The notes beneath the pieces were generated by a model. It worked only from the letters and a program-made list of their open reading frames with translations. It had not been told where the DNA came from and searched no databases. A program made the position numbers and the translations under genes. A stretch of DNA of 64,000 nucleotides, taken from the NCBI RefSeq assembly GCF_947496985.1, contig NZ_CANMEZ010000007.1, positions 62,001 through 126,000 on the forward strand, written 5' to 3'. This document shows, piece after piece, positions 21,304-58,659 of the stretch (position 1 is the first letter of the stretch; the number at the start of each line of letters is the position of its first letter). Source of the DNA: an uncultured Kordia sp. GTDB taxonomy: Bacteria > Bacteroidota > Bacteroidia > Flavobacteriales > Flavobacteriaceae.

Positions 21304-22203
21304 TTAATTACATGCATCTAACGCAGCAGTTAATTCATCATCACTATTAATTGTAGCTTGTGTTCCATCTTCATATTCAATATTCATTGGATATGTAGGT
21401 ACAAATGATACAGCAGCTCCTAATCCATCAATGTAAGTAAAGAACTCTTCATCATCATTTACGGTAACTACGTTTCCGCTATCGTCAACTAAAGTAATTG
21501 GATATACAATTTCGAAACAGTTTGATCCGCAATCATCACAAGGCTCAATATCATAACATTCGTTATAAATTGCATCAAAACCAGCATCATCGTTGATTGT
21601 TACAATTACACCAGTACTTGTTGCTACTGTAATTGGATATGAAAATCCTACACCATTTGGAATTGAAAACAACTCTAAATTGCTAGTCACAGTAACCGTA
21701 TTTCCGTCATCAGTTAATACATCTAATGGAAATATAAATTCGAAGCAATCGTTTCCAACAACAATATCATCTCCAATACAGTCTTCAATAACTGCAATGA
21801 ATTCCATTTCGTCATTAATAACTACTTCTGAACCATCTTCCAATGTTATTGTTACAGGAAAAACAAGTGTTCCTTGCATGCCAGCAGGAGTATTTTGGCT
21901 TTGCATATAAGCATCTAATTCTGCTTGATTGTTTATTACTACAGTAACTCCGTTACCTTCAAATGAATATGGGAAGTTTATAGTAAAACAATCTCCGCTG
22001 GGATCTTCATTTCCATTATCAAAAACATCATCTGCATGATCAGAAGAAACGGCGTTGCGTGCATATGCTGTTAAACCTGTTTTTAAAGCAGCATTTGTCT
22101 CCGTAGCTTGCTCTTCAGGAATTACATCTGTGTTATCATTACTACAGGAAAATGTAAAGATGGTTATTGCTAAAATAAGTGAAAATTTGAGTACGTTTTT
22201 CAT
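21304..22203 (-). CDS. Acidic lipoprotein with tandem beta repeats
   Basis: 299 residues. A lipoprotein signal with FTFSCS places the lipidated Cys near residue 20. After a short linker there are six imperfect repeats of about 40 residues with the pattern YPI-x(6-8)-DG-x-VTINDDxEF, for example FPVTITLEDGSEVVINDEME and YPITLVDDSGNVVTVNDDEE. Cys residues recur in pairs at alternate repeat boundaries (DCFEF, DCGSNCFEI). It is strongly acidic and was probably surface or periplasmic. It is divergently arranged with the sigma / FecR / TonB receptor cassette, so it may be part of the same regulon, possibly as a substrate-binding partner; that link is inference. Confidence 0.7.
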   Translation of the reverse strand: MKNVLKFSLILAITIFTFSCSNDNTDVIPEEQATETNAALKTGLTAYARNAVSSDHADDVFDNGNEDPSGDCFTINFPYSFEGNGVTVVINNQAELDAYMQSQNTPAGMQGTLVFPVTITLEDGSEVVINDEMEFIAVIEDCIGDDIVVGNDCFEFIFPLDVLTDDGNTVTVTSNLELFSIPNGVGFSYPITVATSTGVIVTINDDAGFDAIYNECYDIEPCDDCGSNCFEIVYPITLVDDSGNVVTVNDDEEFFTYIDGLGAAVSFVPTYPMNIEYEDGTQATINSDDELTAALDACN

Positions 22204-26222: not shown

Positions 26223-27047
26223 TTATGACTTATCCGAAAGCGCTTCAATTTCTTTGATTACATCTGCATAGTATACTTTAAAACATAGGTATCCATTGCG
26301 AATATGATAACTATCTAAGAATTTATCTTTTGCTTTTTCAAACTGAATTTTGGCTTCTTCTTGTTTTTGTAATCCTTTATAAGCTAGTCCTGCATAATAA
26401 TAACTATCTGGATAATCTTCTGTGATTTTTAGTTGATTTTCAAAAGCTTTTAGCGCTTTTTCGTATTGCTTATTTTTCACATACAACATTCCTAATGTAT
26501 GGTAATCTGTTAGTCCAAAATCGTCTTCGCGTTGGTAACTTTTTAGGCAATTTTCAATTGTTTGTATTCCTTTTTCATAATCGCCTAATTTTGCATACGC
26601 CATTCCTAACAAAATCCGCATGTCTTTATCGCCACCAGGACTGAGTTCGTAAATAAAAGCATTCGGAAGCTTGTAATATCGTTCTAAATCTTCAATACAA
26701 CGTTTGTAATTTCTATTTTGAAAATACCAATATGCGCGATACGTTAGGTGAAATCTTGGTTCTAATTCTACTGCTTTATCAAGCAATTGTAATCCTTCTA
26801 GTATGAATCCTCTTTTAAAATATGGAACCGATTTTTCCATGTACGCCCAAGCGTAATTTGGATTGAGTTTGATGATAGAATCAAACATCATTTGTGATGC
26901 TTTGCTTCCTTGTTTTAGCTCTTTTCCTTTGTATGCAAGTTCACAGGCTTTGCGTTCGTTGCTTCCTTCAGGATATAATAAACAATTTCCTTGACCGTAT
27001 GCAAAAGCCGAAAAACATAAGAGTATGATATATGTTACTTTTTTCAT
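26223..27047 (-). CDS. TPR-repeat protein, exported
   Basis: 274 residues with a signal peptide (to about residue 19, AFAYGQ). Tetratricopeptide repeats are clear: NYAWAYMEKSVPYFKRGFIL, ILLGMAYAKLGDYEKGIQTI, YHTLGMLYVKNKQYEKALKA and SYYYAGLAYKGLQKQEEAKI. TPR proteins mediate protein contacts; here in the envelope. It overlaps the upstream lipoprotein gene by four bases (ATGA), so the two are translationally coupled and likely act together. Function otherwise unknown. Confidence 0.8.
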   Translation of the reverse strand: MKKVTYIILLCFSAFAYGQGNCLLYPEGSNERKACELAYKGKELKQGSKASQMMFDSIIKLNPNYAWAYMEKSVPYFKRGFILEGLQLLDKAVELEPRFHLTYRAYWYFQNRNYKRCIEDLERYYKLPNAFIYELSPGGDKDMRILLGMAYAKLGDYEKGIQTIENCLKSYQREDDFGLTDYHTLGMLYVKNKQYEKALKAFENQLKITEDYPDSYYYAGLAYKGLQKQEEAKIQFEKAKDKFLDSYHIRNGYLCFKVYYADVIKEIEALSDKS

Positions 27048-27562
27048 GATGGTAAAATGTTTCCGTTTTTAATTTTTATGATTAGGAATGTATATCCATC
27101 ATGACTTTCTCCTTTATATATGGGATGATTCCAATATTCTAGATTTTTTACGTTGGTTATAATTTCTTTTTTTAAAGAAGCTATGCATGTAGTTTCCTTA
27201 AAATCTTCATCTACAATTTGCCAACGAAATCTCCCTGACTCATTTTTACAATTGACTGCAAAACGCACGAAGAAATAGCCTGTAAAAGATTCAAATTCAG
27301 GTTGTTTTTTGTAAATTTCTATCAATTCTTTTTCCATTGCAGGCGTACCACCTGTATACGAAATTCGGCCTCTATGATGCAATACATTTGTTGTATCACA
27401 AAATTTAAAATTGACATCATCTAACTTTGGATCAAAAGGTGTGTCACCAATATGTTCACTATAAACTGGTATTATTTCTTTTTCACTTTCTTTCTGTGTA
27501 TTGCAACCGAAAGCAAGCAATAGTAACGTTGCTAAGTATATGTAGGTTAATTTTTTATTCAT
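27044..27562 (-). CDS. Lipoprotein with TonB C-terminal-like domain
   Basis: 172 residues. A lipobox LAFGC puts the modified Cys near residue 20. Residues about 75-165 (GYFFVRFAVNCKNESGRFRW, then IKNGNILPS at the end) resemble the TonB C-terminal / energy-transducer fold found as free-standing domains in Bacteroidota, although it lacks the N-terminal membrane helix and Pro-rich spacer of real TonB. It is therefore more likely a periplasmic accessory protein. It is coupled to the TPR gene by a 4-nt overlap. Confidence 0.6.
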   Translation of the reverse strand: MNKKLTYIYLATLLLLAFGCNTQKESEKEIIPVYSEHIGDTPFDPKLDDVNFKFCDTTNVLHHRGRISYTGGTPAMEKELIEIYKKQPEFESFTGYFFVRFAVNCKNESGRFRWQIVDEDFKETTCIASLKKEIITNVKNLEYWNHPIYKGESHDGYTFLIIKIKNGNILPS

Positions 27563-27593: not shown

Positions 27594-28757
27594 TTACGAA
27601 TTTCTCATTGAAAAATCGGAATATTCCATTCGATAGAAAAAACCTGTAAAGTCAAACACTGATAATAGTTCTGAATGTGTTTTGGTAATGGTTTCTGCAT
27701 TCGTTGTCATGAAGTTATAAATTTTTACGCCATCTTCTACAAATACTGATTTTAAATCGCCAAAATGTGCAATTATTGCTTCCATTTTTTTGATGTCTAC
27801 TTCATATTTTTTCAGATACAATGCCAATCTGGTTTTTGCATCTTGTTGTTGTTCGTTTGTAAATATGTTCGATGTTATACAACTTTCTAAACACATCATT
27901 GCTGATACATTCATAAATAGATTATTAAAAAGTGTGTATACATTTCTTCGATCTTCCTCATCTTCTATAACTTCAGAAGCGCGTGTACGATGATCTATCT
28001 TGAACATTTCTTGTTGATTGTGAAATAGTGATGTGTGCATTATTTTACCTGTAAGCTTTCCTACCTCATTAATAAAGTATATTTCATCTTCTTTTTCTTT
28101 CCCATTAGGAATTGTAATAAATAAGCAACCATTGGCATTTATAGAAGCAAACGATCTGCTAAATCTATCTTTTAATTGATAAAATACACATTTTTTCAAA
28201 CACATTTGAATCAACGAAAAATGATTAGGAATACTATTTCTCAGATGTGTTATAGCTGTTGTTAATGAAGAAATATTTTGAGTGAATAATGCTTCATTCA
28301 TAATTAATTCTTCTTCCTTTATAGGATCATTCATTGAGACTATTCCTAGAATATTTCGCAGCAATGGCACTCTATACTTTACCACTTCAATTGTCGTATC
28401 TGGAATAAAATGTAATTTTTCAAACGGTGTTGCTTCTCCTTTTTTTAAATATCCAATTGTGGGTACGTATCCAATTCCTTCCGTGTTACAGATAGCATGT
28501 ACGTTTAGTTGTTGCATATCCGTTAAATATCCTTGCATTAACTCAGGCAACATTCCGTCAGGAAAAACCTTTTCGGCTACTTGTGTTCTGTTAAAGTATG
28601 CCATTAATAATGGTTCTATAAAAATTTGATCGTCTTCTAAGTTCAATTTTGTCAAAATTGAAGCATCTTCTTTATAGATTAGTATTCTAATAACATCAGC
28701 AAGTTCATTCTGTTTTTTCGGAATTAGTGTTGTAAGCATAGTTCGGTTTTTACACAT
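27594..28757 (-). CDS. Paralog of the HxxxH protein with degenerate motif (KLTGK)
   Basis: 387 residues, no signal peptide or membrane segment. It aligns over its full length with the 377-residue protein at 29149-30282: shared segments are LMQGY (73-77) against FMQGY, GIGYVPTIGYLKKGE against GIAYVPTIGYFKKGE, and RSFASINANG against NSFASGNALG. Where the paralog has AHQTGH, this protein reads GKLTGK (KLTGK at 234-238), so both candidate metal-binding histidines are Lys. It lies downstream of the GG-peptide gene with a hairpin between. The fold may be related to HEXXH-type peptide-modification proteins; this is tentative. This copy would be a pseudoenzyme or scaffold. Confidence 0.6.
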   Translation of the reverse strand: MCKNRTMLTTLIPKKQNELADVIRILIYKEDASILTKLNLEDDQIFIEPLLMAYFNRTQVAEKVFPDGMLPELMQGYLTDMQQLNVHAICNTEGIGYVPTIGYLKKGEATPFEKLHFIPDTTIEVVKYRVPLLRNILGIVSMNDPIKEEELIMNEALFTQNISSLTTAITHLRNSIPNHFSLIQMCLKKCVFYQLKDRFSRSFASINANGCLFITIPNGKEKEDEIYFINEVGKLTGKIMHTSLFHNQQEMFKIDHRTRASEVIEDEEDRRNVYTLFNNLFMNVSAMMCLESCITSNIFTNEQQQDAKTRLALYLKKYEVDIKKMEAIIAHFGDLKSVFVEDGVKIYNFMTTNAETITKTHSELLSVFDFTGFFYRMEYSDFSMRNS

Positions 28758-28783
28758 TAAAAAACGTTTGATAAAATAAGCAA

Positions 28784-28823
28784 GCAGAGATTACACATCA
28801 CGATGTATGTTATAAATCTCTGC
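28784..28823 (-). terminator. Hairpin between the GG-peptide gene and the downstream paralog gene
   Basis: Arms GCAGAGATT (28784-28792) and AATCTCTGC (28815-28823) form a strong stem; the loop also contains the complementary pair ACATC/GATGT. On the minus strand the following sequence is only moderately T-rich, so it may be a partial terminator or an mRNA-stabilising element that favours precursor peptide expression over the downstream gene. Confidence 0.55.
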
Positions 28824-28861
28824 CTGACATTGTTTATTTATTAGTAAACTAAAAAGATATT

Positions 28862-29041
28862 TTAGTTACTTCTAGTACTTAATGGACTCGCTGGTGCAGC
28901 TGTAGCCGAATGTAAGTGACAATTGTCTGTATGGCACTCATTGAATGGCTTAGCTAAACCACCTGCGATAGTGTTTAATAAATCTTCTGATACTATTGAA
29001 TCTGCTTTTTTTGCTAACTCTGCGAATGATAATTTACTCAT
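28862..29041 (-). CDS. Double-glycine leader peptide, candidate RiPP/bacteriocin-type precursor
   Basis: 59 residues starting ATG at 29041. The first 28 residues (MSKLSFAELAKKADSIVSED, then LLNTIAGG) form an amphipathic acidic/Leu-rich leader ending in Gly27-Gly28, the classical cleavage site of C39 peptidases. The remaining 31 residues contain ECHTDNCHLHS, that is two Cys and three His in ten residues, followed by an Ala/Ser/Thr/Pro tail. The gene lies between two paralogous genes on the same strand, 107 bp from the upstream one and 104 bp from the downstream one. No dedicated ABC exporter is adjacent. A RiPP or bacteriocin-like role is inferred from leader form and gene context only. Confidence 0.7.
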   Translation of the reverse strand: MSKLSFAELAKKADSIVSEDLLNTIAGGLAKPFNECHTDNCHLHSATAAPASPLSTRSN

Positions 29042-29148
29042 AATTAAAATAATTTAAAGGTTGTTTTACTTACTCTATTAAGGCTTTTCAGTTTTCGCCT
29101 ATTTGCGCGCACAAATGTTTTTCAGATCAACTAATTGATCTATATATG

Positions 29149-30282
29149 TTAAGAGTTCAAGTCTGAAAATAGCTTGAAACTAAAGTTGTATGCTTGATTA
29201 GAGAAATCATATGCATCAATGATGCTTCCCCATTTTTTATTAATTTCTTCAAACTTATTTTTGATAGAATTCACAACATCTAATCCTTTTTGGGTTAGCA
29301 TGTTTTCCATTCCGTCATAATGTTTGATTACAATGTCCAGTATTTGTAAGTCGATATTACATTTTCGTTGATAGAATCCAATTCTTGCCAAAGCTTCTTT
29401 GTAATAATCTCCTTCAAAAGCATTTGCTGCAATACATTCATCTAAACAATAGAATGTGGTGTAATACGTGTATAATGCATGAATTAAGATATTGACAGTT
29501 CTATGGTCTGGACTTCCTAAAATTTCTTCTACAGATTGTGAAGCATCTATTTTATAGAACGTTGATTTTTTAAACATCAAGTTGTTCATGATTACATGTC
29601 CTGTTTGATGTGCAATGTCATCTATAAAAAATATTTCGTTGTAATCTTCTTGATATACATTAAAAAATGCTAAGCCAAGTGCATTTCCACTTGCAAACGA
29701 GTTTGAATTATTCGGATCGGTTTTAAACAAATAAATGTATTCACAACATTGATCTATAAGCTGATATTGATCCGGTACGTGTTTGCGAATCAAATCCATT
29801 GCATTGTTGAGTTGATCAATACGATCAGTATATAATTTTTCGTCCCACAATTGATCTTCTGCTGGTGTTTCTAAGATTACTTTTAAAAATGGTGTTGGAC
29901 ATCTTAAAATTTTCACGGACGAATCTTTTACTCTAACTGTTGGTGCAAAAGGCTTGTCTTCTCCTTTTTTGAAATATCCAATTGTTGGCACATAGGCTAT
30001 TCCTTCATCATTATATAAATGATTCAATTGTAATGTTTGTTTTTCAACATGATAACCTTGCATGAATTCTTCTAACAATGCTTTTTCTTCTTCTTCCGAA
30101 AATGTTTTAATGACTTTATGTCTAAAGAATGCAAATAATAACGGACAACAGAAAGTTTCATCATTATCAAAATCTATCTTTTCTAAGATATGCGGAGCTT
30201 CCTTATAAAGTAAAATCTTTACAGTGTTTATTTTTTCATTGATATCAGAAATTATCGAATCTTTTTCTAGTAACTCCGCCAT
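29149..30282 (-). CDS. HxxxH-motif protein, possible peptide-modification protein
   Basis: 377 residues, soluble. The central segment FFIDDIAHQTGHVIMNNLMF carries HQTGH at 225-229, an HExxH-like motif with Gln in the place of Glu, followed further on by CLDECIAANAFEGDYY and similar acidic helices that could supply a third ligand. The layout recalls proteins annotated as HEXXH motif-containing putative peptide modification proteins of RiPP loci; I cannot confirm membership. It is a full-length paralog of the gene at 27594-28757, which has lost the histidines. It is first in the apparent unit: HxxxH protein, GG peptide, degenerate paralog. Confidence 0.6.
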   Translation of the reverse strand: MAELLEKDSIISDINEKINTVKILLYKEAPHILEKIDFDNDETFCCPLLFAFFRHKVIKTFSEEEEKALLEEFMQGYHVEKQTLQLNHLYNDEGIAYVPTIGYFKKGEDKPFAPTVRVKDSSVKILRCPTPFLKVILETPAEDQLWDEKLYTDRIDQLNNAMDLIRKHVPDQYQLIDQCCEYIYLFKTDPNNSNSFASGNALGLAFFNVYQEDYNEIFFIDDIAHQTGHVIMNNLMFKKSTFYKIDASQSVEEILGSPDHRTVNILIHALYTYYTTFYCLDECIAANAFEGDYYKEALARIGFYQRKCNIDLQILDIVIKHYDGMENMLTQKGLDVVNSIKNKFEEINKKWGSIIDAYDFSNQAYNFSFKLFSDLNS

Positions 30283-37987: not shown

Positions 37988-40900
37988 ATGGTCAAAAAAT
38001 ACTTGTTCGCATTATGTTTAGTTTTCTTTTCTATACAACTAACAAATGCCTCATTATCAGGTTCAGAGAATATAAGTGTTGTAATAATGCCCGATGCAAC
38101 AATTAATGTAGATGAAATCACTGTTTGTCAGTATAATGATTCGCCAACTATTACCTTTACAGGTTCTGGCGGAACAGCACCGTATACGTTTACGTATACT
38201 ATAGGCACAGGAATGCCACAACTCATCACTTCTACAGGAGATATAGCTACTTTAGAAGTTCCTACAGGAAACGACGGAACTTTTACATTTACATTGACAG
38301 CTGTTGAAGATAGTAGCTCAACGATGCCAACTCCAATAACTGGACAAGCAGTTACTATTGATATTACTTTAGGGCCTGATCCAGACATAAACGGTCCTGG
38401 AAGTGGAGGATTTTCTAATGGAATTCCTGTTTTTAGTTCATGTGATAGTTCTGGGCCTACACTTTCTTTTTCTAATAATTCATCAACAAGAAATACGATA
38501 AATCAAAGCTATACAATAGTATGGGGAGATGGTACACCAGATTTTACAGGTAGTGATTGGGGATTACTTAATCATGATTACAGTCCAGGAACTTATAATA
38601 TGATTTACACCATAATTGGAGACAATGGCTGCACTACTGTACAAGAATATATTGTATTTATAGGTTCAAATCCTGCAGTACTATTTGGAAGTGCTGGAAA
38701 TGACGGAGTTATATGTAGCGGATCTTTCTTGACTATTCCAATTGACGGAACAGAAAATAATCCACCAGAAACAACGTATACTATTTCATTTAATGATGGT
38801 TCGCCAGATGAAGTATTTAGTCATCCACCGCCAGAAAATATTATACATACATTCACAACTTCCTCATGTGGAGTAGACAGTAATGGTTTTTCAAATTCAT
38901 TTTCTGCAACAATGGTTGCAGAAAATTTATGTAGAAGTACCGAAGTACAACTTGTACCGATTTATGTAGCAACAGAGCCAGAAGCCGATTTTACAAGTCC
39001 TAACGACCCTATTTGTATAAATACTGAAGTTTGTTTTGACAATACATCTACAGGAAATGAAATTAATGGTGGTGACGGAAGTTGCTCTACAAGTCCAAAT
39101 ATTGTCTGGGATATTACCCCAAATACATTTACATTAATTAATGGTTCTTCATTAGGAGATGATTTTAATTCTACAAACACTTCGCTTTGGGCAGCTGGAT
39201 CTAACACTTTATGTGTTAACTTTACTGCAGCTGGAACATACACAATTACACAAACTGCAGGAAATGCGTGTGGTATTGACACCATATCTCAAACTATATG
39301 TGTGGAAGCACCCATAAATCCACAATTCAATTTAAGTGCAAACAACGGATGTACGCCTTTAGCAGTTATAACCACAAATATAACTGATGAATCTACAAGT
39401 TGTGATCCACCAACATATCAATGGCAAGTAACCTATACTTCTGATTTTTGTGGTACTACACCTGCCGATTGGAGTTTTACCAATGGAACATCTGCAACTT
39501 CAGCAGAACCATCGCTCAATTTTGTAACACCCGGAACGTATACAATTCAATTAGCTGGCACAAATACGTGTGGTACTGAACAAACGACACAAGAAGTAAT
39601 TGTAAAACAACCTCCAACAGCCGCTATTGATCCTATTGGAATTATTTGTAATACAACTTCAATTTCACCATTAGCTATTATAAACACATGTACCGATAAC
39701 CCAGGAACTGTTTCGTACGATTGGCAGTTTCCAGGAGCAACACCAGCAAATTCAAGCATGCAATCACCAGGAACTATTGAATATGGAATGCCTGGAACCT
39801 ATACTTTTACACTCCAGGTAACTAATGATTGTGGTACTTCAGAACTTGTGACTGAAACATTTACAATTGGCGATGTTCCGGTTATTACAAATACCGATTT
39901 AACACAAGAAAGCTGTTCAGGAAACTTAACGACACCTATTAACTTCACCTCTTCTGTAACAGGAACTACTTATACATGGACAGCGGTAGCAACGTCAAAT
40001 ATTGCGGGTTACTTATCTTCTGGACCTACAGATAATATTCCTGCACAACCTATGTCAACAATCGACGGCACAGCAGGAACTGTAACCTATACAGTAACTC
40101 CTTCAGTTGGAAATTGTGATGGAGATCCTGTTGATTTTGTAATCAACGTAAATCCTGCACCAGAAATTACCACGCAACCACAATCTAGTATGGTGTGTCA
40201 AAATGGAGCAGCAAACACGCTAAGCGTAGCTACTTCTGGAGCTTCACCGCAATATCAATGGTTTAGTAATACAACAAATAGTACTACAGGAGGAACTCCA
40301 GTTGCAGGAGCTACAAATCCAAATTTTGATCCTCCAACAGATACTGTTGGAACAGTATATTACTATTGTGAAATTACATTTATTGCTGACGGATGCTCGT
40401 CTTTAAATTCGCAAGTAGCAGAAGTTGAAGTCACTCCAAATGCAAGCATTACAACACAACCAACACCTACGCAAAGTTTATGTGTTGGAAGCACAATAGA
40501 AAATTCGTTGTCCGTTGCTTTCACAGACGGAACTGGAACCGTTTCTTATCAGTGGTTTAGCAATACTACGAATAGCAACACAGGTGGAACTGCAATTGTA
40601 GGTGCTACAAATGCTAGCTTTACACCTGCAATTTTCACAACAGCTGGGAATTTTTATTATTATGTAGAATTATCTTTTGCCGGAAGTGGTTGTAATGATA
40701 TTGTAAGCGATGTTGCTGAAATTATTGTTTCAGAGTTACCTGTAATTGACTTACAACCGATTGCCACACAATCGCTTTGTCAAAACACAACTCCAGAAAC
40801 ATTAGAAATACAAGCTTCTGGAGGTTTGGGGACATTTTCGTATCAATGGTATAGCAATACTACAAATAACAATGCTGGCGGAACGGCAATTACTGGCGAA

Positions 40901-43900
40901 ACAAATACTACGTTCACACCACCAACAGATACGGTTGGCACTTTATACTATTATTGTGAAATTTCTCAGCCACCAAATGTGAGTTGTATGATAGTGAGTA
41001 ATCCTTCTGAAGTAATTGTAAATGCAGCTGCTACAATTGATTCGCAACCACAATCACAAGAATTATGTTTAGGCGAAACTGTTACTGATTTAATAATCAG
41101 CTATAATAATGGAGTTGGAACGCCAATTTTTCAATGGTATAGCAATACAGTTGATGATACAACAACAGGAACTATGATTGCTGGAGCAACAACTAACACC
41201 TATACTCCAATGGTTTCTTCTATTGGAACCAGTTATTATTATTGCACCCTTACGTTTGCTTCTGGTGGTTGTTCAGAAATTACTTCTGATACCGCTGAAA
41301 TTATTGTGAACGAAACGCCTAACATTAGCAATTTTACAGAAACACTCTGTAGTGGAAATAGCTTTACCATTGTTCCAGATACTTCTAATGGAGACATTGT
41401 TCCAACTAACACAACTTACACATGGACAACTCCTATAGTTTCTCCTGCAGGAAGCGTTACTGGAATAACTACAGCAACCACTCCACAATCAGATATAACA
41501 CAATCTTTAATAAACACAACTGATGCTACAGCAACAGTAACATATACTGTAATACCAACTTCAGGAAACTGTAACGGAACACCTTTTACTATAGCAATTA
41601 CATTAAATGCTGCTCCAGAAGTTACCATGCAACCACAACCAAGTACAATTTGCCAAGATGGAACACCTAATACTTTGAGTATTTCTCTAGGAAGCACATC
41701 AGACACACCACAATATCAATGGTATAGTAATACGACAGATAGCAACACTAGTGGAACTGCAATTGCAGGTGCTACGAATCCTAATTTTGACCCACCAACA
41801 GATACAATCGGCACTCTATATTACTATTGTGAAATTACGTTTGTTTCTGGTGGTTGCGCATTAATAAGTTCACAAACTGCTTCAGTAACGGTGACGCCAA
41901 ATCCTACAATCTCAGATCAACCAACCATGACACAGAGTTTATGTGTGGGAAGTACAATAGAAAACCCTTTAGCGGTACAATTCACTGACGGAACAGGAAC
42001 AGTTTCATATCAATGGTTTAGCAATTCTATGAATAGTAACACAGGTGGAACTGCAATTACAGGCGAAACTAACGCAGATTTTACACCTCCAATATTTACC
42101 TCAACAGGAAGTTTCTATTATTATGTAGAATTATCTTTTACTGGAAGCGGCTGTAATAACATCGTTAGTGATGTTGCAGAAATCATCATTGTGGCTTCTC
42201 CAATGGTAGATGCACAACCAATTGCATCTCAAACATTATGTCAAAATAGTCCTTCACAAGTATTAGAAGTACAAGTTTCTGGAGGTTTGGGACCATTTTC
42301 GTATCAATGGTTTAGTAACACAACAAATAGTACTACAGGAGGAACTCCAATTGCAGGAGAAACCAATGCAACATTTACACCACCAACCGATACTGTTGGC
42401 TCCGTGTATTATTACTGTGAAATTTCACAAGCTGCAAGCGTAAGTTGTAATGCTATAAGTAACCCTTCTGAAGTTATTATAAACCTTGGACCACTTATTG
42501 ACACACAACCACAATCACAGGAATTATGTACAGCTGACACCGTAAACACACTGAATGTGAGTTTCGTAAATGGTGTTGGCACACCAACATATCAATGGTA
42601 TTCGAATACCGTTAACGACACCATCACAGGAACTATAATTACTGGCGAAACAACAGATTCGTACACTCCAAACACCACTGCAGAAGGAACTACTTATTAT
42701 TACTGTATAATTACATTTTCTTCTGGAGGATGCTCTGAAATCGTTTCGGATACAGCAGAAATAATTGTAAATGAAACACCAGTAATAAGCAACTCTACTA
42801 TAACAATTTGTAGCGGAAATAGCTTTACAATTGCACCTGATACTTCTAACGGTGATATTGTTCCTATGAATACTATGTATACATGGACAGCTCCATCTAT
42901 TTCACCTGTAGGAAGTATTACAGGTGCAACCGCAGAAACGAATCCACAAACAGATATTAGTCAAGTATTGACAAATACAACAACTTCACCCGCAATTGTA
43001 ACCTATACAGTAACACCAACAGCAGGAGTTTGTGCAGGAAACACTTTTACAGTAGAAGTCACAATAAATCCTGCTATTACACCTAATATAATGATTACCA
43101 ATATTGAGTGTTTTGGAGATAATGATGGTGAGATTACTACAAATATTACGGGCGGAATTCCATTTGCAACAGGAACACCCTATATTATTTCTTGGACAGG
43201 ACCTAATGGGTTCACCTCAAATGACGCTTCAATTTCTAACCTTGAACCTGGGAATTATATCTTAACGGTTCAAGATGAAGGTGGTTGTCCTTTTTCTGAA
43301 ACATATACCATTACAGAACCATCAGAACTCATTTTAACCATCGATACAGAAACTTCGGTAACTTGTTTTGGTTCAGCTGATGGTGAAATTGCTGTTACAG
43401 TTTCAGGCGGAACTCAAAATTACACCTATAGTTGGACACGAAATGGTGCGCCTTTTTCTACAGACGAAGATATTTCAGACTTAACTGCGGCAACTTATGA
43501 ACTGACTATTTCAGATGCAAATAATTGTGGTCCAATTGTACAATCGTTTACCATTACAGAACCAGATGAATTAGCTGTTTCATTGGCAAATCAAATGAAT
43601 TTAGCATGTTTTGGAGACAATTCTGGAGCAATCGAAATAAATGTAACTGGGGGAACACCAACAGAAACGACTCCAGGTGTTTTTGAATACACCTATGCTT
43701 GGACAGGTCCAAATGGTTTTACTAGCACTTTACAAAACCTAACAACACTTGAAGGCGGAACATATAATCTAATAGTAACGGATGCTAATGGTTGTGAAGA
43801 CAACTTAAATGTTATCTTAACGCAGCCAGATGAAATTGAAATTTCTACTACGTTTACTGAAATTTTATGTTTTGGAGATAACGATGGTTCTATAACGATT

Positions 43901-45298
43901 ACAAATATCACTGGCGGTTCAGGATCGTATACAATTGAATGGAGTAATTTCGGTGAAGGAATGAGTCAGACAAATTTATCTGCTGGCGATTATACAATTA
44001 CTGTAACAGATTCCAACAACTGTACAGCATTTGTAACCGTAACAATTCCAGCACCACCAATATTTACAATTGAACCTGTGGTAACGCAGATTTCTTGTTT
44101 TGGTGCAAATGACGGTAGCATCATGCTAAATTTTCAAGGTGGGCAAGACCCTATTGATTTCGCTTGGGCGGATGATCCAAATGCAGGTGTAGAACGAAAT
44201 AATCTTGGGCCTGGAACTTACACTATCAATATTGTAGACGCCGTCCCATGTACCATCACGGAAACGTTTATCATTCTTGAACCTGCAGAACTTTCACTTG
44301 CAGCAAATATTACCAACGCATTGGATTGTGATGATCCAAATTCTGGAGCCATTAATCTACTAATCACTGGAGGAACACAACCTTTCACAGTCAATTGGTC
44401 TAATGGTGCCAACACAGAAGATTTAGACAATATTCCACCAGGTGATTATGTCGTAACTGTTGTCGATGCCAATGGTTGTGATATAAATGCAACATATACC
44501 GTTGTACGTCCATCTCCAATAGAGATTGCCGTTGAAACGGAAACTAATGCCAATTGTAACGCATTTACCGTAAATCAAGTATTTACAGCACAAGTTTCTG
44601 GCGGTGTTCCTCCGTATGATTTAAATTGGTCAAGCGGAATAGTTACCGGAGCCAATAATGAAATGATGACAACTTCGCAAAATGGTTTGGTCATTTTAGA
44701 AGCTACGGATGCGCTTGGTTGTGTAAGCAATTATACCTTTGAAGTTGATGTTCCTGTATTGAGCAATCCTGATTTTGAATTATCCTCTATTGGGTTTGAT
44801 ACATATGGAATTTATTCACAACTCGATCCAATACAATTTACCAATACGACAACAGGCGATTTTACAAATGTTTCTTGGAATTTTGGTGATGGAAACTTTT
44901 CCAATGAAGAAAATCCTTTACACACCTATGCATCCCCAGGAAGCTATACTGTAATTCAAACAGTAACTTTTCCGGGAGATTGCGTTTACGAAAGAGTCAT
45001 TACTCTATTAATTGAAAAAGGATACAAACTCATTATGCCAACAGCATTTACACCAAATGATGATGGTTTAAACGATTTTTTCCGACCTGTTTTTATCGGC
45101 TTAGACAATATGCAGTTAGATATTTATGACACATGGGGAAGTTTAATTTATTCTGAAACAGGAGATGATATCCAAGGTTGGGACGGAAAAATTAAAGGCG
45201 AACTTGTCGAAAACGGAAATTACTATTACACATTTACTGCTAAAACATTTTTTGGATCTATCGTTCGCGAAAATGGACCACTTACGTTAATACTATAA
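37988..45298 (+). CDS. Giant secreted multi-repeat protein with T9SS type B sorting domain
   Basis: 2436 residues. Signal peptide about 1-21 (LTNA). Residues about 30-700 hold PKD-like modules with GDGT and conserved Cys. About 718-1697 is an array of Ig-like modules (QWYSNTT, TDTVGTLYYYCEI) in two higher-order copies. About 1698-2200 holds SprB-type repeats beginning CFGDNDGEI and containing GGT and LTVxDxxGC. A PKD domain near 2240-2330 shows WNFGDGNFSNEENPLHTY. The last about 90 residues form the gliding-motility-associated C-terminal domain (PTAFTPNDDGLNDFF, IYDTWGSLIY, GWDGKIKGE, NGNYYYTFTA), which directs export by the type IX system and surface attachment. It is followed by a PorP/SprF gene after seven bases. 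Expected role: surface adhesin or gliding-related filament. Confidence 0.92.
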   Translation: MVKKYLFALCLVFFSIQLTNASLSGSENISVVIMPDATINVDEITVCQYNDSPTITFTGSGGTAPYTFTYTIGTGMPQLITSTGDIATLEVPTGNDGTFTFTLTAVEDSSSTMPTPITGQAVTIDITLGPDPDINGPGSGGFSNGIPVFSSCDSSGPTLSFSNNSSTRNTINQSYTIVWGDGTPDFTGSDWGLLNHDYSPGTYNMIYTIIGDNGCTTVQEYIVFIGSNPAVLFGSAGNDGVICSGSFLTIPIDGTENNPPETTYTISFNDGSPDEVFSHPPPENIIHTFTTSSCGVDSNGFSNSFSATMVAENLCRSTEVQLVPIYVATEPEADFTSPNDPICINTEVCFDNTSTGNEINGGDGSCSTSPNIVWDITPNTFTLINGSSLGDDFNSTNTSLWAAGSNTLCVNFTAAGTYTITQTAGNACGIDTISQTICVEAPINPQFNLSANNGCTPLAVITTNITDESTSCDPPTYQWQVTYTSDFCGTTPADWSFTNGTSATSAEPSLNFVTPGTYTIQLAGTNTCGTEQTTQEVIVKQPPTAAIDPIGIICNTTSISPLAIINTCTDNPGTVSYDWQFPGATPANSSMQSPGTIEYGMPGTYTFTLQVTNDCGTSELVTETFTIGDVPVITNTDLTQESCSGNLTTPINFTSSVTGTTYTWTAVATSNIAGYLSSGPTDNIPAQPMSTIDGTAGTVTYTVTPSVGNCDGDPVDFVINVNPAPEITTQPQSSMVCQNGAANTLSVATSGASPQYQWFSNTTNSTTGGTPVAGATNPNFDPPTDTVGTVYYYCEITFIADGCSSLNSQVAEVEVTPNASITTQPTPTQSLCVGSTIENSLSVAFTDGTGTVSYQWFSNTTNSNTGGTAIVGATNASFTPAIFTTAGNFYYYVELSFAGSGCNDIVSDVAEIIVSELPVIDLQPIATQSLCQNTTPETLEIQASGGLGTFSYQWYSNTTNNNAGGTAITGETNTTFTPPTDTVGTLYYYCEISQPPNVSCMIVSNPSEVIVNAAATIDSQPQSQELCLGETVTDLIISYNNGVGTPIFQWYSNTVDDTTTGTMIAGATTNTYTPMVSSIGTSYYYCTLTFASGGCSEITSDTAEIIVNETPNISNFTETLCSGNSFTIVPDTSNGDIVPTNTTYTWTTPIVSPAGSVTGITTATTPQSDITQSLINTTDATATVTYTVIPTSGNCNGTPFTIAITLNAAPEVTMQPQPSTICQDGTPNTLSISLGSTSDTPQYQWYSNTTDSNTSGTAIAGATNPNFDPPTDTIGTLYYYCEITFVSGGCALISSQTASVTVTPNPTISDQPTMTQSLCVGSTIENPLAVQFTDGTGTVSYQWFSNSMNSNTGGTAITGETNADFTPPIFTSTGSFYYYVELSFTGSGCNNIVSDVAEIIIVASPMVDAQPIASQTLCQNSPSQVLEVQVSGGLGPFSYQWFSNTTNSTTGGTPIAGETNATFTPPTDTVGSVYYYCEISQAASVSCNAISNPSEVIINLGPLIDTQPQSQELCTADTVNTLNVSFVNGVGTPTYQWYSNTVNDTITGTIITGETTDSYTPNTTAEGTTYYYCIITFSSGGCSEIVSDTAEIIVNETPVISNSTITICSGNSFTIAPDTSNGDIVPMNTMYTWTAPSISPVGSITGATAETNPQTDISQVLTNTTTSPAIVTYTVTPTAGVCAGNTFTVEVTINPAITPNIMITNIECFGDNDGEITTNITGGIPFATGTPYIISWTGPNGFTSNDASISNLEPGNYILTVQDEGGCPFSETYTITEPSELILTIDTETSVTCFGSADGEIAVTVSGGTQNYTYSWTRNGAPFSTDEDISDLTAATYELTISDANNCGPIVQSFTITEPDELAVSLANQMNLACFGDNSGAIEINVTGGTPTETTPGVFEYTYAWTGPNGFTSTLQNLTTLEGGTYNLIVTDANGCEDNLNVILTQPDEIEISTTFTEILCFGDNDGSITITNITGGSGSYTIEWSNFGEGMSQTNLSAGDYTITVTDSNNCTAFVTVTIPAPPIFTIEPVVTQISCFGANDGSIMLNFQGGQDPIDFAWADDPNAGVERNNLGPGTYTINIVDAVPCTITETFIILEPAELSLAANITNALDCDDPNSGAINLLITGGTQPFTVNWSNGANTEDLDNIPPGDYVVTVVDANGCDINATYTVVRPSPIEIAVETETNANCNAFTVNQVFTAQVSGGVPPYDLNWSSGIVTGANNEMMTTSQNGLVILEATDALGCVSNYTFEVDVPVLSNPDFELSSIGFDTYGIYSQLDPIQFTNTTTGDFTNVSWNFGDGNFSNEENPLHTYASPGSYTVIQTVTFPGDCVYERVITLLIEKGYKLIMPTAFTPNDDGLNDFFRPVFIGLDNMQLDIYDTWGSLIYSETGDDIQGWDGKIKGELVENGNYYYTFTAKTFFGSIVRENGPLTLIL
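40160..43070 (+). repeat. Two-copy higher-order repeat of about 1455 bp in the adhesin gene
   Basis: Copy 1 is about 40160-41614 and copy 2 about 41615-43070. Each runs through the same order of modules, marked by QPQ...CQxG, TQSLCVGSTIEN, QPIA(T/S)Q(S/T)LCQN, QPQSQELC and CSGNSFTI with DTSNGDIVP. Shared anchor CCAGAA lies at 40160 and 41615. Many stretches are near-identical at DNA level, for example the segments coding QWFSNTTNSTTGGTP at about 40255 and 42305. Confidence 0.85.
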
Positions 45299-58035: not shown

Positions 58036-58065
58036 TATCCTCTAAATAAGAAGAAATCATCTTTC
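58036..58065. repeat. 30-bp direct repeat, distal copy
   Basis: Identical over 30 bases to 58667-58696 (begins TATCCTCTAAATAAGAAG). This copy supplies the last two codons and the stop codon of the C39 gene. The identity ends sharply at both sides. Confidence 0.92.
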
Positions 58066-58659
58066 GTCAATTAAAGAATTAGACAACAAAATAGAATCTT
58101 GTTTTTTAGCTTTTACATCACTTTGCAAACGCGCTTTTATTTTGGTAGTCGCCTTATAAAATTTACCTGTAGCTTCAAACACTAATGCATATCCTTCCTC
58201 TACCATATTGGTAGAATCTTGGACAATCCAGTTGGGTAAAAATTCTTCTTTCGCATATGTTATTGCTCCTTTTGCAGGATCGGCAATCCAAATAGAGTCT
58301 CTATCCATTTTATACACCAATACAAAATGATTTCCATTCCAATGCAACATTGCTGGATATGGAACTTCGTTCAGTAAAGTTTCATAGTCAATTTTAATTG
58401 CTAGGTTTTTTAAACCAATTATATCTGCTGCACTTGCAATATCCCCCATAGAAGTTCCTTCCGCTCGTAAATTGGAAAGTTTGTTTAAGAGTTCAATATC
58501 ATAATCAACGCCATAATAGCGACTCACCATTTGTAAACATGTTGGCCCGCACTCAACCTGGTCTTTTTGTAAAATAATTGGAAATGGTTTTTCCTGTTCA
58601 TGCCCTAATTTACAAGAAACAATAAGTAAAAATAGCCAAAACAATCTTATAACTTTCAT
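58057..58659 (-). CDS. Stand-alone C39-family cysteine peptidase lipoprotein
   Basis: 200 residues. A lipoprotein signal (LLIVSC) places the lipidated Cys at residue 16. The C39 domain (about 25-150) has the oxyanion Gln31 and catalytic Cys37 in LQKDQVECGPTCL, His111 in HWNGNHFVLVYK and Asp127 in IADPAKG, so the triad looks intact. C39 domains normally form the N-terminus of ABC exporters and cleave double-glycine leaders; here no exporter part exists and the domain is predicted to be outside the inner membrane. It ends a metal ABC operon and lies within 30-bp direct repeats. Its substrate could be GG-leader peptides or be unrelated. Confidence 0.85.
   Translation of the reverse strand: MKVIRLFWLFLLIVSCKLGHEQEKPFPIILQKDQVECGPTCLQMVSRYYGVDYDIELLNKLSNLRAEGTSMGDIASAADIIGLKNLAIKIDYETLLNEVPYPAMLHWNGNHFVLVYKMDRDSIWIADPAKGAITYAKEEFLPNWIVQDSTNMVEEGYALVFEATGKFYKATTKIKARLQSDVKAKKQDSILLSNSLIDER

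Follow-up and report, generated by a model that had tools for sequence, protein, structure and literature searches.

What kind of system is encoded where a short gene for a peptide with a double-glycine (GG) leader lies between two genes for large, paralogous proteins? This arrangement occurs in a 64,000-nucleotide stretch of DNA (the window) from an uncultured Kordia sp. (RefSeq contig NZ_CANMEZ010000007.1); the large proteins are here called P1 and P2. A preliminary description had taken the three genes as a complete peptide-maturation (RiPP-type) or peptide-immunity unit. Below we consider how far the block extends, what is conserved in its peptide and which enzyme family P1 and P2 belong to.

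Extent of the gene block

The three ORFs are borne out, in coordinates and translations, as a GG-leader peptide gene between two paralogs on the minus strand (Table 1). They are not the whole unit: the block comprises five genes and extends to position 26223, two genes past the start at 27594 that had been given for it. It is transcribed in the order P1, peptide, P2, lipoprotein, TPR protein. The identical five-gene order is found in genomes G179 and G249, and the block thus exists in three Kordia genomes, including that of the window. In G255 and G256, the TonB-type receptor and methyltransferase genes that flank the window's block are about 0.9 and 1.6 kb apart, respectively, and a tblastn search (E 1e-3, 20 kb around the flanking genes) detected none of the five block genes. 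They are also absent beside the upstream neighbors in G252 (tblastn; the stretch examined excludes the receptor), and in G179 the TonB-type receptor is not adjacent to the block. The five-gene block is therefore present in three Kordia genomes and without trace in three others.

Table 1. Features of the block (positions in the window) and of the added methyltransferase genes (positions in the named loci).
Feature	Position	Strand	Description
P1	29149..30282	-	377 aa; HQTGH and downstream His; probable non-heme iron peptide-modifying enzyme, divergent aKG-HExxH relative
Precursor peptide	28862..29041	-	59 aa; 28-aa GG leader, core with two Cys-His units
RNA hairpin, terminator/attenuator-like	28781..28826	-	Peptide-P2 gap; folding z -3.1 vs shuffles
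P2	27594..28757	-	387 aa; P1 paralog without HxxxH and without downstream His; probable pseudoenzyme partner
Small lipoprotein-like protein	27044..27562	-	172 aa; lipobox-like start, judged by eye
TPR protein	26223..27047	-	274 aa; Pfam TPR matches; signal-like start
CmoA-like/carnosine-methyltransferase-like genes	L014 11800-13838; L030 4872-6564		G176; G560

None of the five genes exceeds the curated cut-offs of the LanB, LanM, radical SAM or YcaO families, in agreement with the preliminary description. The hairpin in the gap between the peptide and P2 genes beats shuffled sequences in all four P2-bearing loci (z of -5.7, -5.3, and -4.9 in the relatives) and could raise the abundance of the peptide over that of the downstream products. 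Elsewhere in the window, a lipoprotein-like protein of 299 aa is encoded at 21304-22203 (minus strand); it has similar repeats with Cys in them, as judged by eye, and matches no Pfam family over its cut-off. A 2436-aa repeat protein, whose C terminus resembles a sorting domain by eye, is encoded at 37988-45298 (plus strand).

Distribution of relatives and the conserved peptide core

Relatives of the large proteins were found in 3 of 11 genus genomes, 4 of 249 family genomes by single-protein search and 10 of 397 by P1 profile, 4 of 282 class genomes, and 5 of 395 phylum genomes; these samples overlap, and the relatives are not independent of each other. In total, 15 loci in 14 genomes (that of the window included) have P1-type genes or what is left of them: P1 is intact at 12, split over two frames at one (G123), and reduced to a remnant at two (G419 and G662). 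G896 and G968 were left out of the 15 loci. Their HExxH proteins are more distant and score 30.2 and 54.8 bits, respectively, with the family model TIGR04267, and no GG-CH peptide was found in the DNA examined (19 kb and a 3.4-kb contig). The gene for the G896 protein (HEISH) adjoins a YcaO-type gene and one that looks ThiF-like by eye, with a recombinase-like gene in the vicinity (L101 8970-12206).

The window peptide has a leader ending in LLNTIAGG and the core LAKPFNECHTDNCHLHSATAAPASPLSTRSN. In an alignment of 15 peptides, the invariant residues are the GG, one Cys, and one His, and both GG and Cys-His are present in all 17 peptides of a fuller list that includes the G120 peptide and the second G176 peptide. 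One-unit peptides read GG-X4-CH (13/13), so that Cys and His occupy core positions 5 and 6, while two-unit peptides, CHx3CH, are those of all four P2-bearing loci. The tails beyond Cys-His are highly variable, and G419 has an additional ORF of the one-unit type with its start within the leader. As a control for chance, 88 small ORFs with GG at the expected place were collected from 20 stretches; CH followed within 12 residues in 16 of them, and all 16 are members of the window-peptide family (the ORF rule missed the G179 and G419 peptides). A match of the peptide to XyeA (12 bits; cut-off, 33) was rejected as chance.

The preliminary description was to count as refuted if homologs of the large proteins usually stood without GG peptides. 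This is not so, as a GG-CH ORF exists at all 15 loci with P1-type genes or remnants. Because those loci were chosen via the big protein, a search with the peptide profile served as the reverse test: it matched 17 of 397 family genomes, among them all 10 P1-positive genomes. Five weak matches (E of about 0.001 to 0.01) came from genomes with no GG-CH ORF in the 3-kb stretches examined. G120 has a GG-X4-CH peptide together with CPBP-like and TPR genes and no detected P1 (the best few candidates per genome were scored). In G170 (77% complete) the peptide is broken, as a stop interrupts its leader and Cys-His has become Cys-Tyr (L090, about 872-979), and P1 was not found on the same contig. The window locus combines a GG leader, a short precursor, and an adjacent gene of the modifying-enzyme type.

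Neighbors were counted over 17 stretches (the 15 loci, G120, and G170); their names come from Pfam or NCBIfam matches of one or two examples each and otherwise from similarity or inspection by eye. The TPR protein recurs in 11 stretches and the lipoprotein gene in 7; the small lipoprotein, for which Pfam gave no match at E 0.01, presumably has a TonB_C-like look. Both a C39 ABC transporter and a CPBP-like membrane protease occur in 9 of the 17. An amidohydrolase is encoded in four (L029, L056, L057, and L059; Pfam for L029), either in the gap that separates P1 from the C39 transporter or nearby. Two stretches (G176 and G560) have CmoA-like and carnosine-methyltransferase-like enzymes with an aldo/keto reductase, beside ILGACH-type peptides.

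The five-gene block of the window includes no C39 transporter. Four C39 matches over the cut-off were found in the window's genome, two of them strong: an ABC transporter on contig C1, adjoining LanB-like genes, and a lone protein in the window (58057-58659, minus strand) with a lipoprotein-like start and without an ABC transporter part. These two proteins are candidate proteases for the window leader. Contig C1 (L037) carries a separate lanthipeptide-like cluster, made up of two GG peptides, a LanB that is split, and the C39 transporter.

Family kinship of P1 and P2

P1 and P2 are 31% identical, and the profiles of the two groups match with an E value of 2.5e-60. The HQTGH of the window P1, already singled out in the preliminary description, belongs to an HxxxH motif conserved in all 13 P1 proteins. 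Its second residue is Gln in 12 of them, including that of the window, and Glu (HExxH) only in G560; a downstream His is present in 12 of 13 and replaced by Asn in G648. In G560 (motif HEGSH), the P1 frame continues into the lipoprotein gene, giving 549 aa (L030 9185-10834).

With TIGR04267, the model of the aKG-HExxH peptide beta-hydroxylases, P1 scores 17.2 bits (E 0.0039), below the curated cut-off of 40. The model matches 4 of 17 family proteins, i.e., three near-identical Kordia P1s and that of G415; the best score among P1 relatives is 20.9 bits and the best E value 0.00028 (G415). Whole-genome searches with TIGR04267 did not recover P1, and the count of 0 in 247 phylum genomes is no proof of absence, because the same search overlooked even the P1 of the window genome. 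Canonical-type members are present elsewhere in the class, as seen in the class genome sample.

Other comparisons bear on the kinship. A search of plasmid records totaling 7.3 billion bases with P1 (E 1e-3) gave a single match, a protein annotated as HEXXH motif-containing putative peptide modification protein. The same protein is the lowest-E match of the G415 relative (2e-4; 7 records in total, the others at E 0.3 or worse), and it scores 91.9 bits with TIGR04267. Together with three relatives found by it, two being close Xenorhabdus proteins, it formed a canonical yardstick, one of whose four proteins was scored with TIGR04267. Profile-profile comparison of the 13 P1s with this yardstick gives a probability of 98.0% and an E value of 1.9e-13 over 170 columns. 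In pairwise and profile alignments, the HQxGH of P1 falls on HExGH, and its downstream His is matched to the His of FHA; these alignments served in place of L012, whose frame lacks such a motif, for fixing the profile register. P1 is thus kin to the aKG-HExxH peptide beta-hydroxylases, although it has diverged from them and falls under the family cut-off, and it is probably a non-heme iron peptide-modifying enzyme. Searches by sequence against solved structures gave no credible match. Lone weak matches were taken as chance: those of P1 to FliI and others, and those of P2 to pantoate ligase and herpes capsid.

P2 presents a different picture. The KxxxK that had been noted in it as a motif is not common to the four P2 proteins, in which the place reads KLTGK, FFTGK, HYTGK, and FTSSS. 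The full HxxxH is present in none of the four; the first His is retained only in the G249 P2, and the second His and the downstream His in none. Because at least two of the three candidate metal ligands are lost in all four genomes, KxxxK represents a decayed motif. The P2 proteins form one fully supported group, whose branching matches that of their P1 partners, some forks not being strong. P2 alone matches the canonical aKG-HExxH set poorly (probability 2.3%, E 0.021), and it is placed in the family because of its match to P1. P2 accompanies 4/4 two-unit peptides and 0/13 one-unit peptides; in our sample this association with the doubled CH unit has no exception, but it may stem from a single event. 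P2 is probably a pseudoenzyme partner.

Proposed route, alternatives, and known systems

The explanation that we favor, with a probability of about 0.6, is a RiPP biosynthesis block in which P1 would oxidize Cys-His, P2 would have a non-catalytic role, a C39 protease would cut after GG, and the product would be exported. The precursor would be bound through its leader, and P1, as an enzyme of the aKG-HExxH kind using iron and aKG at a metal site of HQxxH plus His, would oxidize the Cys-His unit or units after the leader. We assign oxidation to this unit because it is fixed in the peptides; it is a probable target, with hydroxylation as the likeliest reaction and beta-hydroxylated His (or Cys) as the most likely product. 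Hydroxylation by superfamily members takes place on His, Asp, Phe, Gln, and Pro (PMC13060819). P2, which keeps the sequence family and not the metal site, might help P1, perhaps with the second unit. Cleavage after GG would take place in trans, since the window's block encodes no C39 protease, and the mature peptide would then be exported. The lipoprotein and the TPR protein may work in the envelope, in handling or self-protection. Counted against this explanation are the score of P1 below the TIGR04267 cut-off, the replacement of the hallmark Glu by Gln in 12 of 13 proteins, and the G120 GG-X4-CH peptide without a detected P1.

A different chemistry is conceivable, although we regard it as doubtful: P1 might link the sulfur of Cys to the ring of His, or oxidize that sulfur, via a three-His iron site. 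Three-His iron sites occur in thiol-oxidizing enzymes, P1 retains three candidate His residues, mostly without the Glu, and the Cys and His of the peptide are adjacent and invariant. Two loci also add a methyltransferase that matches carnosine methyltransferase and, weakly (36 bits; cut-off, 170), the model of the OvoA C terminus. However, canonical members have the downstream His as well, so that three His residues are not special, and superfamily members described in print mainly hydroxylate. With a similarly low chance, the locus could stand for a new RiPP class defined by a Cys-His unit close to the leader, in which the HQxxH iron enzyme forms a Cys-His bond and the twin lacking a metal site enables two tandem units; if true, this bond would be a ribosomal route to thiohistidine-type chemistry.

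It is about equally improbable that the Cys-His peptide is active unmodified (e.g., as a metal-binding or antimicrobial peptide), with P1 and P2 as chaperones, sensors, or immunity proteins. P2 is without a metal site, G120, in which no P1 was detected, still has genes for the peptide, CPBP, and TPR proteins, and the G662 and G419 peptides persist beside P1 remnants; yet P1 is intact at 12 of 15 loci with its His residues conserved, and G170, where no P1 was detected, has the broken peptide reading Cys-Tyr. The peptide-immunity system of the preliminary description found no direct support. Least likely of all is that P1 is a metallopeptidase trimming the precursor. Zincin peptidases need the Glu, whose loss disables zincin-type hydrolysis, and it is Gln in 12 of 13 P1s; besides, a C39 protease is available for the leader at 9 of 17 stretches. 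What speaks for trimming is the HxxxH motif and PflC, a member of the same aKG-HExxH superfamily that also cleaves the backbone oxidatively (PMC12636437).

The locus points to a branch of the aKG-HExxH family whose scores with the current model stay under the cut-off. The features of this branch are a hallmark motif with Glu naturally changed to Gln, a short substrate motif that is fixed, and a pair of enzyme and dead twin that accompanies the doubled substrate unit; the chemistry of P1 and the role of the twin are testable with small parts. In the open-licence literature (subscription papers being outside the scope), no description of the P1-peptide-P2 composition was found among the matches listed, which consist mostly of titles and the beginnings of abstracts. 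The composition, for which the preliminary description knew of no exact counterpart, has known relatives, given the kinship of P1 with aKG-HExxH enzymes and the G415 relative.

That relative, with LanB and LanC beside its own P1 and peptide, provides a link to the class I lanthipeptide clusters of Bacteroidota, a link seen only in G415, whose peptide could alternatively be a LanB substrate; the five genes of the window, in contrast, include no dehydratase or cyclase. With bacteriocin and RiPP systems that combine a GG leader and a C39 ABC transporter, the family shares the GG leader and, at 9 of 17 stretches, the C39 transporter with an HlyD partner, whereas the window's block is without a transporter. 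The closest likeness is to the aKG-HExxH peptide beta-hydroxylases (TIGR04267/IPR026337; ChlBH, BpmH, PflC/PosC, and PesO), with which the family has in common a homologous catalytic stretch, HxxxH, the downstream His, and a RiPP context. It differs from them in HQxxH for HExxH, scores under the curated cut-off, GG-X4-CH or CHx3CH substrates, a pseudoenzyme twin at four loci, and lipoprotein and TPR partners. The suggestion that this is a RiPP-type locus, and that one of its proteins is kin to HExxH peptide modifiers, is thus supported, and the locus looks like an uncatalogued branch within a family of peptide-modifying systems that is already known.
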